From: Natronobacterium haloterrestre
Lineage (GTDB): Archaea; Halobacteriota; Halobacteria; Halobacteriales; Natrialbaceae
Direction of reading: 5' to 3'
Length of the DNA: 64,000 nt
Assembly (NCBI RefSeq): GCF_900112205.1
Contig: NZ_FOKW01000007.1
Coordinates: 62,001 to 126,000 of the forward strand
Below, in pieces: positions 57,825 to 64,000 of this stretch. Both the position numbers and the translations under genes were made by a program. Within the stretch, counting starts at the first letter, position 1. Every line of letters starts with the position of its first letter. Below the pieces are notes generated by a model. It was not told the origin of the DNA. It saw nothing but the letters and a program-made list of their open reading frames with translations, and did no database searches.

Positions 57825-57890
57825 GCACCATTGTCATCGACTGACAGGATAGTTCACGTTGTCCATCCTCGCTGCGACGGGTTTCACAAC

Positions 57891-57897
57891 TATTAGG
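57891..57897 (+). promoter_or_regulatory. Proximal TATA-like box of hemE
   Basis: TATTAGG lies about 28 bases before the hemE ATG at 57922 and supports that start over a GTG/TTG-type extension of 21 codons upstream. Confidence 0.55.
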
Positions 57898-57921
57898 CCA
57901 GCCCCTCGCTTACGGGTGGCC

Positions 57922-58932
57922 ATGAAAGACCTGTTCCGCAAGGCAGCCCGGGGCGAACCCACCGAGCGCCCCCCGGTGTGGATGATGCGCCAGGCCGGCC
58001 GGTACCTGCCGGAATACCGGGAACTCCGGGAGGACTACTCGTTCCTCGAGGCCATCTCCACGCCGGAAGTCGCGGCCGAGATCACGCTCCAGCCCTGGGA
58101 GCGGTTCCGTCCCGACGCCGTCGTCATGTATTCGGACATTCTGACCGTGCTCGAGCCCCTGGGGTTCTCCTATCACCTCGAGTCCGGCGTCGGCCCGGTC
58201 GTCGAGAACCCGGTCGAAGCGCCTGCAGACACCCGCCGCGAACGCGGCGACGTCCGCGAACAGCTGTGGTACGTCGGCGACCTGCTCGAGCGACTCACGG
58301 ACGAACTCGGGGACCAGGCCGCGACGCTTGGCTTTGCCGGCGGTCCGTTCACGCTTGCCGCCTACGTCTGTGAGGGGACGCCCTCGCGGTCGTTCATGGC
58401 GGTCCGTCGGCTCCGGGCGGAACACCCCGAGGCGTTCGAGCGACTGCTCGAGGCCTTTACCGACGTGCTGGTCGAGTACGTCGAGTTCCAGGTCGAGTCG
58501 GGTGCCGACGCCGTCCAGCTGTTCGACACCTACGCCGGGTTGCTCTCGCCGGCCGACTACCGGGAGTTCCTGCTCCCGTTACACCGGAGGGTCCTCGAGG
58601 CCGTCGACGCCCCGACGATCGTGTTCGCGCGCAACGTGAGCGGCAACCTCGATCTGCTGGCCGACAGCGGGGCCGACGTGGTCGGCCTCGACTGGACGGT
58701 CGACCTCGAGTCGGCACACGAGCAACTCGCGGACGAGGACGTCGCGATCCAGGGCAACCTCGATCCCGCCCTGCTGTACGGCGATCCCGAGACGGTTCGC
58801 GAGCGCACACGCGACGTCATCGACGCGGCGGGCGACGCCGGCCACATCCTCAATCTGGGCCACGGCGTCGACCGGAACACGCCGGTCGAGAACGTCGAGG
58901 CGTTCTTCGAGACGGCGAAAACCGTCGAGTAG
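57922..58932 (+). CDS. hemE: Uroporphyrinogen III decarboxylase
   Basis: A 336-residue cytoplasmic TIM-barrel enzyme that decarboxylates the four acetate side chains of uroporphyrinogen III to give coproporphyrinogen III. The substrate-binding N-terminal motif RPPVWMMRQAGRYLPEYRE is intact. So are the glycine-rich GFAGGPFTLAAYV, the catalytic Tyr/Asp region VQLFDTYAGLLSPADY and the C-terminal LNLGHGVDRNTPVENV. The presence of hemE with hemH and hemY nearby indicates porphyrin-route heme synthesis in addition to or instead of the siroheme-based archaeal route. It converges with hemH, 13 bases away. Confidence 0.95.
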   Translation: MKDLFRKAARGEPTERPPVWMMRQAGRYLPEYRELREDYSFLEAISTPEVAAEITLQPWERFRPDAVVMYSDILTVLEPLGFSYHLESGVGPVVENPVEAPADTRRERGDVREQLWYVGDLLERLTDELGDQAATLGFAGGPFTLAAYVCEGTPSRSFMAVRRLRAEHPEAFERLLEAFTDVLVEYVEFQVESGADAVQLFDTYAGLLSPADYREFLLPLHRRVLEAVDAPTIVFARNVSGNLDLLADSGADVVGLDWTVDLESAHEQLADEDVAIQGNLDPALLYGDPETVRERTRDVIDAAGDAGHILNLGHGVDRNTPVENVEAFFETAKTVE

Positions 58933-58945
58933 AACGGATCTAGTT

Positions 58946-60010
58946 CTAGTTTTCCGGCGGCAGTCCCGCGTTGAAACAGTACGTCCCCGGCTCGTCGCGG
59001 CACTGACACTGCCGGAGCTGATAGTACGACGGCTCGAAACCGGACAGGAACGGCTCCACGACGTCAGCGAGCAGCCCGGGGAACCGCGGGTCGTCGTGGG
59101 GCACCGGGACCCGGTGGAGGTCGAGGCCGACTTCGGCGGCGTCCTCCGCGAGGTCGACGTCGAGTTCGACCAGCGTCTCGGACTGCTCGTGCATGAAGCT
59201 CATCGGCTCGACGACGACGCGTTCGGCCTCGTCGCCCAGGTCCTCGACGACCTCCTCGGTCTCGGGCTCGGTCCAGTCGATACCGCGGTTCTGGTGGTTC
59301 TGGTAGCCGATCTCGTACTCCTCGAGGCCGATCATGCTGGCGATCGCTGCGGCGTGTTCCTCGACGTACTGGTCGTACCGGCTGCCCTCCTCGAGGTACT
59401 TCGTCGGCGTGCCGTGGGCCGAGAAGACGAACGCGGTGTCGGGGTCCGAGAGGTCGAGCCCCTCCTCCTCGGCGAACTCGCGGATCCCCTCGGCGCGGAT
59501 CCGGTTGTAGACCGGCGCGCGGTGCCAGCCGGTGATCGAGGAGAAGTCGGGTTCGTAGCCGTCGACTTCGTCGATCGACTCCTCGAGCGAGTCGATAGCG
59601 GAGACGGTCGTCGACGGCCCACAGAGCGGGTAGATCGGCACCGCGAGCACGGACTCGAAGCCTTCCTCCGCCAATTCCTCGGCGACGTCGGGGATCAGCG
59701 GCTCCATGAACTGCATCGCGTGGTAGATGGTAACGTCGTGACCCCGTTCCTCGAGCGTCTCGTCGAGGGCTTCCGCCTGTGCGGTCGCCTGTGGCTGCAG
59801 CGGCGAGCCGCCGATCTCCTCGTACTCCTCCATCAGCCCCGGCAGCCGGCGCTTGGCCAGTTCGCGGGATCGTTCCCAGGCCGCTTCCTCGGATTCGGCG
59901 TCCTCGAGCGAGGCGTTGTCGTAGAAAATTCGTGTGAGGTACTCGAGCACGACGTCGCGGTCCGGTTCGGACGGCTCTCCGAAGTTCAGCAGGACGATAG
60001 CGGTCTCCAT
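58946..60010 (-). CDS. hemH: Ferrochelatase (protoporphyrin or coproporphyrin)
   Basis: A 354-residue enzyme that inserts Fe2+ into a porphyrin. The catalytic His is in VFSAHGTPTKYL near residue 197 and the catalytic Glu in MSFMHEQSETLVELD near residue 278. PQATAQAEALDETL and PIYPLCGPSTTVSAIDSL are also family segments. The C-terminus carries three Cys in a CxCx7C pattern (near residues 333-344), perhaps iron-sulfur ligands as in some bacterial ferrochelatases. Whether the substrate is protoporphyrin IX or coproporphyrin III is undecided. A TATACC box lies 27 bases upstream of the ATG, in the 63-base gap after hemY, so hemH has its own promoter. Confidence 0.92.
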   Translation of the reverse strand: METAIVLLNFGEPSEPDRDVVLEYLTRIFYDNASLEDAESEEAAWERSRELAKRRLPGLMEEYEEIGGSPLQPQATAQAEALDETLEERGHDVTIYHAMQFMEPLIPDVAEELAEEGFESVLAVPIYPLCGPSTTVSAIDSLEESIDEVDGYEPDFSSITGWHRAPVYNRIRAEGIREFAEEEGLDLSDPDTAFVFSAHGTPTKYLEEGSRYDQYVEEHAAAIASMIGLEEYEIGYQNHQNRGIDWTEPETEEVVEDLGDEAERVVVEPMSFMHEQSETLVELDVDLAEDAAEVGLDLHRVPVPHDDPRFPGLLADVVEPFLSGFEPSYYQLRQCQCRDEPGTYCFNAGLPPEN

Positions 60011-60073
60011 GATCGGCTGTTAGGAGAGGTCCGGTATAGGTACTTCGGAGACGGAAGACCGGACAGCCTGCGC

Positions 60074-61381
60074 TCAGTTCGATTCGGCGACGGCGGCCGA
60101 CCGGCTCCGGTCCCCCTCGTCCTCGGCGAGTTTGCCGGCAAGTCGTTTCGCGTTCCGGATCCGTCCGGGAATTCCGGGACGGCCGACGTAGTTCGCACAG
60201 AAGTGAATCCCCTCGGGTGGCTGGAGGTCGTCCATCGCCGTCCACGAGCGGTCGTAGGCGGGCATCCCCGGATCCCACCGGTGGACGTGGATCGGCGTCG
60301 CCGAGGCACCGGTGAGCCGTTCGAACTCCGCCGCGGCGACCGCCCCGAGTTCCTCGTCCGAGCGGTCGGGCATCTCCGGATCGCTCGCCGGGTCGACGTA
60401 GCAGGTGAACAGCCGGTCGCGGTCGAGGAAACTCGCGTTCCAGGTGCTGCCGCTGATGCCGACGTCCGATCCCGATGGAACGAGCGCGCCGATCCCGTCG
60501 CGCTCTAGGTCCGACTCCACGAAGACCATCCCGATGGGGTTGTAGTTGAACTCCCGGAGCGTCGTCGCGAGTCCGTCGTCGACCGACTCGAGCAACGCGG
60601 CGCTCGTCGGAGCCGGTGTCGTCAGGACGACGTCGTCGACCCGCTCGGTTCCGTCGGGAGTGACGATCTCGTATCCTTCTCCCGTTTCCTCGATCCGTTC
60701 GACGGGCGTCTCGAGGGCGATCGAATCGGCATGTTCTTCGTATAATCGTTCAGATAGTTTTCCGAGACCATCGTCGAACGAACATATCGGCGGTGCGTCC
60801 CGACCCGAGACGACTTTCCGGGCTACCCACGTCAGGATGCTCCCGTCGATCCCGGCTCCGTCGAGGGCTCGACCGAGCGAGTACTCCATCAGCATGTCCC
60901 TTGGGTCGGTCCCGTAAAGACCGCTGTACAGCGGACCGAAGTACCTCCGGGCGGCCTGTCGACCGAACTTCCGTACGAGGAACTCGTCGACCGTCTCGCC
61001 GGGGCGCTGTGGATCGGTGAAGGGTTCTTTCAGGATGCGGAGTTTTCCCCGGGGACTGAGCAGGTCCGTCGTGATCGCCTCCCGCACCGACAGGGGGACG
61101 ACCTCGAGGGAGCCGTCGTGGTAGACGTAGAGCGGTTGATCGTCGTCCCCGATCCGGAGCTGGTCGCGAAGTTCGAGGTCGTCGACCAGCGACTCGATAC
61201 CGGGCGTGAGCCGCAGTCGCTGCGGACCGAGTTCGAGGACCCGGCCGTCGACCCGACGGCTCCGCATGACGCCGCCAGGTTCGTCGCGCGCCTCGAAGGC
61301 TGCGACGTCCGCGCCGCGTTCCTCGAGCGATCGGACGAGCGTGAGCCCGCTGATACCGGCTCCGACGACGCCGACGGTCAT
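60074..61381 (-). CDS. hemY: Protoporphyrinogen/coproporphyrinogen oxidase, FAD-dependent (HemY type)
   Basis: A 435-residue flavoprotein that oxidises the porphyrinogen ring by six electrons. The FAD motif is VGVVGAGISGLTLVRSLEERGADVAAFEARDEPGGVMRSRRV at the N-terminus, and a C-terminal FAD segment is ICFCANY-like IHFCANYVGRPGIPGRIRNAKRLAGKL. The middle includes a substrate region with LLSPRGKLRILKEPF and LYSGLYGTDPRDMLMEYSLG. HemY-type enzymes of the coproporphyrin branch (CgoX) are soluble, and no membrane helix is clear here. It lies upstream of hemH on the same strand, and the pair works in sequence with hemE. Confidence 0.88.
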   Translation of the reverse strand: MTVGVVGAGISGLTLVRSLEERGADVAAFEARDEPGGVMRSRRVDGRVLELGPQRLRLTPGIESLVDDLELRDQLRIGDDDQPLYVYHDGSLEVVPLSVREAITTDLLSPRGKLRILKEPFTDPQRPGETVDEFLVRKFGRQAARRYFGPLYSGLYGTDPRDMLMEYSLGRALDGAGIDGSILTWVARKVVSGRDAPPICSFDDGLGKLSERLYEEHADSIALETPVERIEETGEGYEIVTPDGTERVDDVVLTTPAPTSAALLESVDDGLATTLREFNYNPIGMVFVESDLERDGIGALVPSGSDVGISGSTWNASFLDRDRLFTCYVDPASDPEMPDRSDEELGAVAAAEFERLTGASATPIHVHRWDPGMPAYDRSWTAMDDLQPPEGIHFCANYVGRPGIPGRIRNAKRLAGKLAEDEGDRSRSAAVAESN

Positions 61382-61635: not shown

Positions 61636-61923
61636 TTAGTCGTCGGCCGGTGCCGCGGGGGAGTCGATCTCGGCCGTCGGCGGTGCACTCGTCAGCTTGT
61701 ACACACCGTAGACGAACCAGACCAACAGCCCGAGCGCGATGATGTACGCTCGCAGGTCCGGCGACACTACCGGCGTCGCGACGATCGCTCCCTCTTCCTC
61801 GACGGGGACGTGCGGCGCTCCCGCGAGGTCGTTGATCAGGCCCATGACGACGATCCCAAGCAGCATGAGACCGCCGCCGAGACCCATAGCGATCCGGTCG
61901 ACTACGTCGGTTGTTGTCGTCAT
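61636..61923 (-). CDS. Small two-helix membrane protein in the DoxX operon
   Basis: A 95-residue protein with two predicted helices (about residues 9-31, RIAMGLGGGLMLLGIVVMGLIND, and 59-78, AYIIALGLLVWFVYGVYKLT) and a Pro/Ala-rich C-terminal tail. It begins 5 bases after the DoxX-family gene, so the two form an operon. No family is recognised; it may be a partner subunit of the DoxX protein. The ATG at 61923 is preferred over one ten codons earlier, which would lie within the end of the DoxX gene. Confidence 0.65.
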   Translation of the reverse strand: MTTTTDVVDRIAMGLGGGLMLLGIVVMGLINDLAGAPHVPVEEEGAIVATPVVSPDLRAYIIALGLLVWFVYGVYKLTSAPPTAEIDSPAAPADD

Positions 61924-61928
61924 CGTGA

Positions 61929-62465
61929 TCACCCCATGAGGTACCGCAGCCATTTGCGATTCTGTACGTAGTCGGTCCCCTCGAGGTACGCGTCGATTCC
62001 GAAGACGCGGCCGGCACCGAACACGATCAGCGTCAGGAACAACAGTAGTCCCATCAGGTCGCCGTTGACGAAGCCGTGGCTCCAGTCGGCGTTCCCGAAG
62101 TAGAAGAAGAACATCAGGATCGCCCCGTTCGCCGCGGCGAGCCTGGTCAGACAGCCCACTATCAGGCCGAGTCCGATCGCAAGCTCACCCCAAGGGATCA
62201 TCAGGTTCGGCAACCATACCGCGTTGGCGGCGAACCACGACGTAATCGGGTAGATGAGCGTCCCCTCCGCGGCGTACATCATCCACCCGTGGGCGTCGTA
62301 GAACACCCCGTGTTCGACGATTTTGGACAGTCCTGCTCCCAGGAACCACCAGCCGACGATGAGCCGCAGGAACACCAGCCAGTAACTCGTCCACGGCTTG
62401 TCGAGTTCGAACGCTACCGAGCGTCCGAACAGTTCGGTCCGGACAGGTTGTGTGTCGTATGTCAT
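61929..62465 (-). CDS. DoxX/DoxD-family membrane protein
   Basis: A 178-residue membrane protein with four or five helices. Features of the DoxX family are YWLVFLRLIVGWWFLGAGLSKIVEHGVFYDAHGWM, LMIPWGELAIGLGLIVGCLTRLAAANGAILMFFFYFGNADWSHGFVNGDLMGLLLFLTLIVF. DoxD/DoxX proteins form part of thiosulfate:quinone oxidoreductase in Sulfolobales and act in redox membrane complexes in bacteria; here no DoxA partner is seen, so the substrate is unknown. A TTATAAA box lies about 140 bases upstream, giving a leader of about 110 bases. It shares a promoter motif with the Cys-rich gene at 62679. Confidence 0.85.
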   Translation of the reverse strand: MTYDTQPVRTELFGRSVAFELDKPWTSYWLVFLRLIVGWWFLGAGLSKIVEHGVFYDAHGWMMYAAEGTLIYPITSWFAANAVWLPNLMIPWGELAIGLGLIVGCLTRLAAANGAILMFFFYFGNADWSHGFVNGDLMGLLLFLTLIVFGAGRVFGIDAYLEGTDYVQNRKWLRYLMG

Positions 62466-62581
62466 GTTGAATCCACCCTGTTTCGCGGTGCGGTCGAAGT
62501 CCGTTTCGTTCGTAGTCGATTCCGGTGTCGCCCGACACGGGTCGTCACACCTGGTAGTAGTCCGTCCCGTGCGGTAGGTTT

Positions 62582-62608
62582 GATACTGAATACTACAGTT
62601 TTTTATAA
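62582..62608 (-). promoter_or_regulatory. Composite promoter of the DoxX operon
   Basis: On the minus strand TTATAAA is followed four bases later by TGTAGTAT and then TCAGTATC. The same TTATAAA-N4-TGTAGTAT arrangement occurs in the promoter of the Cys-rich gene (63088-63122), so the two are probably controlled by one factor bound just downstream of the TATA box. Confidence 0.6.
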
Positions 62609-62678
62609 GGAGAACCGAACCGTGTCGGGAGACCGACCACAGTCGCGGTCAGGAGGACGCGCTCGCCCGACCGACCCA

Positions 62679-63059
62679 TCACGCTCGTCCGGCAGTAGTA
62701 CAGCGAACCCGAAACTCGCCGACCCACCCCTCGAGTCGTTCCAGAAGGGGGAGAAATTCCTCGTCGCCGAAGGTCGACCAGCATCCTCCCTCGATCTCAC
62801 TCTCGATCTCGATCCGCAAAGTGACGGTCGTCCGGCGGTCGCGCTCGCGACGGTCGACGGTAACGTCCCTGACACCCTCGACCTCGAGGCACTCGAGACA
62901 CCAGTCGAACAGCCAGCCTTCGTGTTCGGGACGGTGGTCGACGAGTCCGTGGTCGATCTCGTACTGGATTTCACACAGGCACGACCGCGTGTCGGTTCGG
63001 TCGGCACACTCCCCGAGAACGGCGGGTTCGCTCCAGGAGGGGTCTCGCTCGAGGGACAT
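62679..63059 (-). CDS. Cysteine-rich small protein of unknown function
   Basis: A 126-residue acidic protein with seven cysteines: C18, the close pair C27 and C29 (SCLCE), the CxxC pair C54 and C57 (DWCLECLE), C93 and C120. No family is recognised. The arrangement suggests zinc or an iron-sulfur cluster, or a redox-active disulfide. The second half is strand-rich (GVRDVTVDRRERDRRTTVTLRIEIESEIEGG). Its promoter carries the same TTATAAA-N4-TGTAGTAT element as the DoxX operon downstream. A regulator gene with the CXCX7C motif lies immediately upstream, so the protein probably belongs to a small redox-responsive regulon. Confidence 0.6.
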   Translation of the reverse strand: MSLERDPSWSEPAVLGECADRTDTRSCLCEIQYEIDHGLVDHRPEHEGWLFDWCLECLEVEGVRDVTVDRRERDRRTTVTLRIEIESEIEGGCWSTFGDEEFLPLLERLEGWVGEFRVRCTTAGRA

Positions 63060-63087
63060 ACGAGTACTAACGATACCGACAACGAAG

Positions 63088-63122
63088 GTAGTACGTCTCT
63101 ATACTACACGGGTTTATAACCC
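63088..63122 (-). promoter_or_regulatory. Composite promoter of the Cys-rich gene with inverted repeats
   Basis: The TATA box sits in the palindrome GGGTT-TAT-AACCC (63110-63122). Read on the minus strand, TTATAAA is followed after four bases by TGTAGTAT. The latter is one arm of an inverted repeat, GTAGTA-N8-TACTAC (63088-63107), at the expected transcription start, a usual archaeal operator position. Confidence 0.6.
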
Positions 63123-63200: not shown

Positions 63201-63857
63201 TCAGCCCCGAACGAGCGAGTTGACTAGTTTCGACTCGACCGTGTTGAGCCGCTGGGAGACCGCGGACCGAGAGACGCCCAGTTCGTCCGCGAGGTCGCCG
63301 AGGTCCGCCCGACGGGGCGTCTCGTAATACCCCGACTCGACGGCGGCGACGACCGCCTCGCGCTGTTTTTCCGTTAGCCCGTCGGCGTCGGGATCGGGGG
63401 TGGTCCGGCCGTCGGCGTCCGGCCCGGAACTCGTGATCCGCTCGAGTTGGACCGTCGCCCCTGTCTCCCGGAGATCGTTGACGATCCGCTCGAGTTCGGT
63501 TCGGTTCGGCGTCGTCAGCGAGACCCGAAGCGAGTCGCGATCGACGCCCTCGATCGACGTGATACAGTCGTGACGCTGGAAGACGGGACAGATACAGCGA
63601 TCGGTGACGTCCGTCCGGATATATTGCGATCCGCCGTCGCTCGGGTCGGTCACCTCGGATCGGCACTCGCAGCCGTCGCTACAGTCACCGTCTCGACAGA
63701 GGAGGTCCTGATCGATCGCAGCGTCGCGGTCGCCGGCGTCCAGAACGGAACAGTATGCCTCCGAATGTGGCTCGATCCGGAACTGGGCGCGAACGTAGCT
63801 CGAGGGATCCGGGGCGGAAGCCGACTCGGACTCACGAGCGGATTCCTGCAGCGCCAT
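63201..63857 (-). CDS. Cysteine-rich HTH_10 regulator of the NarO/DmsR type
   Basis: A 218-residue regulator. The N-terminal half is rich in cysteine: C36, C54, C59, C63, C65, then C88-x-C90-x7-C98 (DRCICPVFQRHDCI). A CXnCXCX7C arrangement is the feature reported for haloarchaeal NarO and DmsR, oxygen- or redox-responsive activators of anaerobic respiration genes. The C-terminal HTH_10 domain is LTEKQREAVVAAVESGYYETPRRADLGDLADELGVSRSAVSQRLNTVESKLV (about residues 161-212). A TTTATTAA box (63881-63888) lies about 27 bases upstream of the ATG. A second, similar regulator gene ends just upstream at the window edge. It probably controls the Cys-rich gene and DoxX operon. Confidence 0.85.
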   Translation of the reverse strand: MALQESARESESASAPDPSSYVRAQFRIEPHSEAYCSVLDAGDRDAAIDQDLLCRDGDCSDGCECRSEVTDPSDGGSQYIRTDVTDRCICPVFQRHDCITSIEGVDRDSLRVSLTTPNRTELERIVNDLRETGATVQLERITSSGPDADGRTTPDPDADGLTEKQREAVVAAVESGYYETPRRADLGDLADELGVSRSAVSQRLNTVESKLVNSLVRG

Positions 63858-63945
63858 TACGTCCGTTCATTCGAGGGCTGTTAATAAAGGCCGACGGAGA
63901 ATCCCCAATCGATGGGAATGCAGTCGCTCCGAACGGCGGGAGGCG

Positions 63946-64000
63946 TCACGAGTCGGTGAACGAACGTACGAGCGTCGTCTCGACGGCGTTGAGCCGCTGT
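63946..64000 (-). CDS. Second HTH_10 regulator, C-terminus only (cut by window edge)
   Basis: The last 17 codons of a minus-strand gene reading QRLNAVETTLVRSFTDS and a stop at 63946-63948. They align with the C-terminus of the neighbouring regulator (QRLNTVESKLVNSLVRG), so a tandem paralogue continues beyond base 64000. Nothing more can be said of its N-terminal sensor domain. Confidence 0.75.
   Translation of the reverse strand, partial: QRLNAVETTLVRSFTDS

Follow-up and report, generated by a model that had tools for sequence, protein, structure and literature searches.

A conserved box between the TATA region and the predicted start of haloarchaeal redox-associated promoters as a candidate operator of DmsR/NarO-type regulators

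Introduction

To our knowledge, HTH_10 (Bat-like) proteins are very numerous in haloarchaea, and few of them have a known binding site. DmsR has been reported as a positive regulator of dms in anaerobic respiration (PMC1447603), and NarO has been described as an oxygen sensor (PMC11218638) that also represses dms with nitrate (PMC10062603). A CGAA-N4-TTCG palindrome has been reported for NarO-regulated denitrification promoters (PMC5746218).

The window analyzed here is a 64-kb stretch of contig C12 from the 4.5-Mb genome of Natronobacterium haloterrestre (G000). The original prediction for this stretch held that two of its promoters share a TATA box followed at identical spacing by a common sequence and that, together with the redox-type regulator next to them, they form one small regulon with no described counterpart. 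The last point stands in part. The regulator class is known from DmsR and NarO, so the system is not without relatives, but in the open-access literature we found no description of the box, of the small-protein family or of a DoxX/HTH_10 regulon, although the primary papers on NarO and DmsR might contain one. Here we report where the box lies, how far it is conserved across genera and which genes follow it, and show that in this genome it is confined to promoters near DmsR/NarO-type regulators.

Results

Both window promoters carry TTATAAA-N4-TGTAGTAT without mismatch on the minus strand, as TTATAAAAAACTGTAGTAT at 62608-62590 and TTATAAACCCGTGTAGTAT at 63119-63101. The DoxX-operon promoter box (62586..62608, minus strand) consists of TTATAAA at 62608-62602, AAAC, TGTAGTAT at 62597-62590, TC, and AG at 62587-62586. 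The small-protein promoter box (63097..63119, minus strand) is likewise an exact match, with TTATAAA at 63119-63113, CCCG, TGTAGTAT at 63108-63101, AG, and a second AG at 63098-63097. When up to 3 mismatches were allowed, the window held 2 matches, compared with a mean of 0.01 in shuffled sequence, and none of 100 shuffles contained two. The predicted sharing of one element with identical spacing was thus confirmed by two exact copies, and the same spacing recurs in relatives.

Random occurrence of the motif throughout the genome had been named as a reason to abandon the element. A search of the whole 4.5-Mb genome with up to 2 mismatches returned 4 sites versus 0 for the reversed pattern, and the sites are enriched beside regulators, so the element withstood this check. 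The third site (C12:186621, 1 mismatch) lies in the promoter of a short HTH_10 gene 62 kb away, whose neighbors are a third DmsR-like regulator paralogue and a copper-type P-type ATPase. The fourth, TTATATA-N4-TGTCGTAT at C15:75205-75223 (L007:4206-4224), has 2 mismatches and is followed after about 20 bp by an HTH_10 gene; the protein has the helix SAFLERL, and the gene is divergent from a paaA-like gene. The pattern AA-N4-TGTARTAT-NNAG has 3 sites in this genome, at the DoxX, small-protein and short HTH_10 genes, versus 0 for the reversed control, and all 3 adjoin DmsR/NarO-type HTH_10 regulators.

Two symmetrical sequences were also considered. The inverted repeat GTAGTA-N8-TACTAC, to which the original prediction had drawn attention, does occur in the second promoter; a search of 311 loci, however, found it in this genome and one sister species only, and we rejected it as a functional unit. 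The palindrome CGAA-N4-TTCG is absent from both window promoters, and the window as a whole contains 5 copies versus 2.75 expected by chance.

Across haloarchaeal genomes, the conserved part is TGTARTAT-NNAG, at a constant position downstream of the TATA box and ahead of the predicted start. The conserved columns in 27 aligned boxes were a TATA region ending in AA four bases before TGTARTAT, a C before the box, TGTARTAT itself, and AG after 2 free bases. The 27 boxes also keep a purine six bases before a conserved A, which lies about 30 bases after the TATA centre and fits a start site (A in 20/27, A or T in 26/27). The column p-values are inflated, because the position weight matrix (PWM) was trained on the same sites as were aligned and the relatives are not independent; PWM scans covered selected loci only. 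We place the element between TATA and start: conservation sets in at the TATA region, continues across the box and reaches the initiator, whereas the sequence farther upstream, before the TATA region, is unconserved. From this alignment, we predict minus-strand transcription starts at 62575 for the DoxX operon, where the conserved A follows the AG by 11 nt, and at 63086 for the small-protein gene, whose copy has a T in this column. The TATA box proposed as part of the element is TTATAAA in both window promoters, but in relatives it has to be relaxed to an A/T-rich stretch ending in AA, and the sequence there is often degenerate.

Small-protein promoters carry TGTAGTAT-NGAG in G001, G003, G084, G068, G014, G028, G102 and G009, and TGCAGTAT in G002; the box is kept even where the TATA sequence has become CTTAAAC, GTAAAAAC or TCAAAAAC. 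In orthologous DoxX-operon promoters the box is kept in G001 and G014 and has varied to TGTACTAT in G085 and TGCAATAT in G021. The box stands ahead of DoxX operons in four lineages and ahead of the small-protein gene in at least nine genomes.

The first gene of the DoxX operon (61929..62465, minus strand) encodes a DoxX-family membrane protein of 178 aa that scored 32.0 bits against Pfam DoxX (cut-off 23.6) and 29.0 bits against DoxD (cut-off 22.7). Against NF041179, the curated equivalog model for DoxD as small subunit of thiosulfate:quinone oxidoreductase (TQO), it scored 25.5 bits, below the cut-off of 300. The second gene (61636..61923, minus strand, start picked by comparison with relatives) encodes a two-helix membrane protein for which no Pfam family scored above cut-off, and a two-helix gene also directly follows DoxX in G001, G014, G021 and G085. 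Orthologous DoxX operons that share the box or a variant of it are 70-98% identical and have the same two-helix second gene. At more distant DoxX genes the box is absent, and a different TATA-proximal sequence is common to them. The TATA-proximal sequence common to a second DoxX subfamily (about 50% identical; L085-L102) is TTAAACACCCTCTATCGCGTGGG, and in many cases an inverted repeat, for example TTCCCGAACAACGGGAA, comes after it; a different regulator may use TTAAACACCCTCTATCGCGTGGG as its box.

The region beside the DoxX operon (window positions 57859-61381) contains genes of the uroD-like, ferrochelatase and protoporphyrinogen-oxidase-like types. Haloferax volcanii is reported to have no uroD, cgoX or cpfC (PMC5746218), and the presence of such genes here suggests that haem synthesis in this haloarchaeon may follow a classical or a coproporphyrin route.

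The second box precedes a gene (62679..63059, minus strand) for a small acidic protein of 126 aa, which we assign to a ferredoxin-like family without a name on the basis of an alignment and an AlphaFold2 model. Relatives were found in 11 of 121 genomes by sequence search, this one included, and in 2 more via the motif. In several genera the gene lies directly downstream of a DmsR-like regulator. The family alignment (14 members, built from DNA references) shows invariant Y, H, E, W, L, W, R and L. The original prediction had singled out the seven cysteines of this protein, a trait that did not survive comparison: no cysteine is conserved in the alignment, and the G068 member has a single one. 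We therefore rejected the idea of a redox protein acting through seven cysteines. The model has a beta-alpha-beta-beta-alpha-beta sandwich fold (mean pLDDT 78.7, core >90), for which Foldseek searches of the PDB returned generic alpha+beta barrel matches with best TM-scores of about 0.55. A Pfam search gave no match for any member of the family. We also rejected the possibility that the protein is a fragment of the regulator sensor domain, as hhalign gave a probability of 0.4% and the Foldseek matches were generic only.

The predicted link to the neighboring redox-type regulator was supported. Regulator A (63201..63857, minus strand) is a DmsR/NarO-type protein with a C-terminal HTH_10 domain (PF04967, residues 161-212, 71.9 bits, cut-off 23.1) and a partial DmsR_N domain (PF24277, profile positions 80-142 of 143, 33.1 bits, cut-off 27). 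Its recognition helix is SRSAVSQRL. It contains CICPVFQRHDC, an instance of the CxCx7C pattern that we take to define NarO, and C36, C65, C88, C90 and C98 are invariant in six aligned orthologues. A structure model of regulator A was of low confidence (pLDDT 62.6) and was left out of the analysis. The 3' end of a tandem paralogue, regulator B, lies upstream of A at 63946..64000 on the minus strand, and the gene runs past the window to the equivalent of position 64668 (L005:6947-7669); regulator B has the motif CFCATLSRFDC and the helix SKSAVSQRL. Regulator A adjoins the DoxX and haem genes; relatives adjoin genes of anaerobic respiration, namely NrfD/FeS in G035 and nar in G243.

An imperfect palindrome, ATCCCCAATCGATGGGAA, lies upstream of regulator A at 63901..63918 and is not significant by itself in the window. 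Similar TTCCCA-N6/7-GGAA sequences precede many Cys-type HTH_10 regulators (L006:7159, L190:9319, L194:10982, L196:10771, L197:8902 and L188:9902), and a second tier of control is possible. As a genome-wide element, TTCCCA-N6-TGGGAA was discarded after it was found in 1 place versus 6 control matches.

The 4.5-Mb genome has 63 HTH_10-domain genes, and about 7 of the roughly 46 helices that could be read are of the SQRL type. Where a Cys-type regulator stands beside a box, its recognition helix reads SA[VI]SQR[LI]; the NarO-type protein next to the nar promoter with the box in G243 is one such case. In Haloferax larsenii, NarO has the helix STFAEHL, and the nar promoter carries another sequence where the box would lie. 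The correspondence between box and helix is imperfect, since a fifth DmsR-like regulator in this genome, with the helix SALSQRL, stands beside a dms-type operon and no box was found nearby.

We then compared the distribution of boxes and regulators. Across 125 genomes of the family, AA-N4-TGTARTAT-NNAG occurred at 31 sites and the reversed pattern at 17; 17 of the 31 box sites lay within 1.5 kb of an HTH_10 gene, versus 1 of the 17 reversed sites (Fisher p=6e-4). The box was present in 12 of the 27 genomes in which regulator A has a close relative (E of about 1e-28 or lower, a cut-off set after seeing the data) and in 9 of 98 others (p=9e-5). We regard the next comparison as the fairest. Among 13 loci chosen by the regulator alone and outside the PWM training set, 7 had a box variant scoring above 13.6 bits, compared with 1 of 44 comparison loci (p=5e-5), the 13.6-bit cut-off having been fixed after the scores were seen. 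Two of the 13 loci, in G118 and G036, repeat the arrangement of regulator, box and small protein. A close regulator was present in G017, G024, G106, G121 and G022, and no recognisable box was found there.

Other genomes supported the proposed small regulon and showed it to be wider than could be seen from the window. Short HTH_10 genes are preceded by the box in G001, G070, G122 and G021, and more weakly in G068 and G085. The box stands ahead of an ETF beta (electron-transfer flavoprotein) gene in G014 and, in G035, of a two-domain 2Fe-2S ferredoxin gene and a 4Fe-4S/NrfD operon, with weaker variants before FeS/NrfD genes in G009, G102 and G028. In G058, from another family, boxes occur at an EB_dh-family gene, a 2Fe-2S ferredoxin gene and hemA, encoding glutamyl-tRNA reductase (L181:9115-, 10836- and 10911+), and no HTH_10 gene was found within 9 kb of them; the ferredoxin and hemA box sites are also present in G168. 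In G243 the box is in the promoter of a nar (nitrate reductase) operon preceded by a NarO-type gene with the helix SAISQRL. The ETF, NrfD/FeS, EB_dh, ferredoxin, hemA and nitrate reductase boxes are each found in single lineages. We rejected the box as a universal NarO site, because most nar promoters have other TATA-proximal sequences. Haloarchaeal nar promoters (L148-L171, L178:2270-2330) have conserved TATA-proximal sequences of their own, for example TTTAAACACCCACCATCCTGTGGTCG...GTTACCGG, and TATAAAAAACCGCCATATAATGGGCC preceded by CGAACATGTTCG.

Discussion

Sequence comparison suggests that TGTARTAT-NNAG is probably the operator of DmsR/NarO-type regulators with the SAVSQRL helix and that these would control a small respiratory or redox regulon. 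The putative operator would start four bases downstream of the AA in the TATA region and end about 11 bases before the predicted start. It would be bound by HTH_10 proteins with the SAVSQRL helix, namely regulator A and/or its paralogue B and, in many genomes, also a short sensor-less HTH_10 protein whose own promoter carries the same box. By homology to DmsR and NarO, the CxCx7C motif may sense oxygen or redox state through a metal center, and the Cys-type regulators would open box promoters at low oxygen, in line with reports on DmsR (PMC1447603) and NarO (PMC11218638). The short HTH_10 protein may then occupy the same box and close the promoters again. The predicted output in this genome would be the DoxX operon, the ferredoxin-like small protein and the short HTH_10 gene 62 kb away.

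As to the direction of control, homology favors activation and position favors repression by occlusion. We lean slightly toward activation by the Cys-type proteins combined with repression by the short form, and hold this loosely because activators do not usually act from between TATA and start, a position more often seen with repressors. It is quite conceivable, if somewhat less so than the contrary, that the regulators are purely repressors, which would sit on the box and block assembly of the pre-initiation complex until an oxygen, sulfur or metal signal releases them. The position overlaps the RNA polymerase footprint, and a short sensor-less HTH_10 gene with the box in its own promoter is the usual layout of negative autoregulation. 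Yet several box promoters have poor TATA sequences, and the characterized relatives NarO (PMC10062603) and DmsR (PMC1447603) are reported as activators.

The box might also be read by the general transcription machinery. TFB and RNA polymerase contact DNA just downstream of the TATA region, and a core-promoter element similar to a downstream B-recognition element or an initially melted region, read by a TFB/TBP pair rather than by HTH_10 proteins, would account for a box directly downstream of the TATA region, at a fixed distance from the predicted start, that is kept where the TATA sequence is degenerate. We consider this improbable. An element of general factors would be scattered over many promoters, whereas this genome has only 3 copies in 4.5 Mb, all of them by HTH_10 regulators; other families, such as the nar promoters and the second DoxX subfamily, have other conserved sequences in the same place; and the box co-varies with the recognition helix.

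It is similarly unlikely that the box, though real, is the site of some other, unlinked regulator and that the DmsR/NarO-type genes are adjacent because of a shared redox neighborhood. In many genomes the cluster does include 2-oxoacid:ferredoxin oxidoreductase and FixA/ETF genes, and the G058 boxes have no HTH_10 gene found nearby. However, at the third locus, 62 kb away, the regulators and the box recur without the other neighbors, and the box both matches the recognition helix and is enriched in loci selected by the regulator. The last reading, that the two window boxes are one promoter copied with its genes and devoid of regulatory meaning, would suit their shared strand, their separation of about 500 bp and their near-identity in a sister species, but is already contradicted by the pattern of conservation: the two promoters retain the box between flanks that bear no relation to each other, G014 has this pairing too, in different surroundings and again with unrelated flanks, and the box persists at about 50% protein identity.

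A broader and more speculative extension would be that a class of haloarchaeal HTH_10 regulators acts from operators between TATA and start, with the helix setting specificity (SAVSQRL reading TGTARTAT-NNAG, other helices other TATA-proximal boxes) and sensor-less short forms competing for the same box. We regard this extension as rather doubtful; were it true, it would define a separate type of archaeal regulatory architecture, with a predictable code of its own. For the DmsR/NarO class itself, an asymmetric TATA-proximal box tied to one helix type is a directly testable candidate site, which suggests that regulator specificity may be readable from sequence. It would also link DoxX membrane proteins and a nameless small-protein family to the control of anaerobic or redox respiration.

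Among described systems, Bat has the same kind of HTH DNA-binding domain and a light/oxygen regulon (PMC1447603). Unlike the present regulators, whose N-terminal domain is of the Cys type and whose candidate box is downstream of TATA, Bat carries GAF/PAS sensor domains, and its UAS lies 5' to bop. The CGAAYATDKTYG semi-palindrome of Haloferax mediterranei denitrification genes is, like our box, a conserved promoter element of anaerobic respiration, and no regulator is assigned to it (PMC10062603). It differs in sequence and symmetry, the present box being asymmetric and downstream of the TATA region. NarO of Haloferax volcanii is likewise a Cys-type HTH_10 regulator, and in G243 it is a NarO-type gene that precedes the boxed nar operon, but the element reported for NarO is a palindrome (PMC5746218). 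DmsR of Halobacterium shares with regulator A the HTH_10 C-terminus, the DmsR_N domain and a gene adjacent to its targets; it is reported to activate the dms operon (PMC1447603), whereas the predicted targets here are DoxX, the ferredoxin-like small protein and a short HTH_10 regulator.
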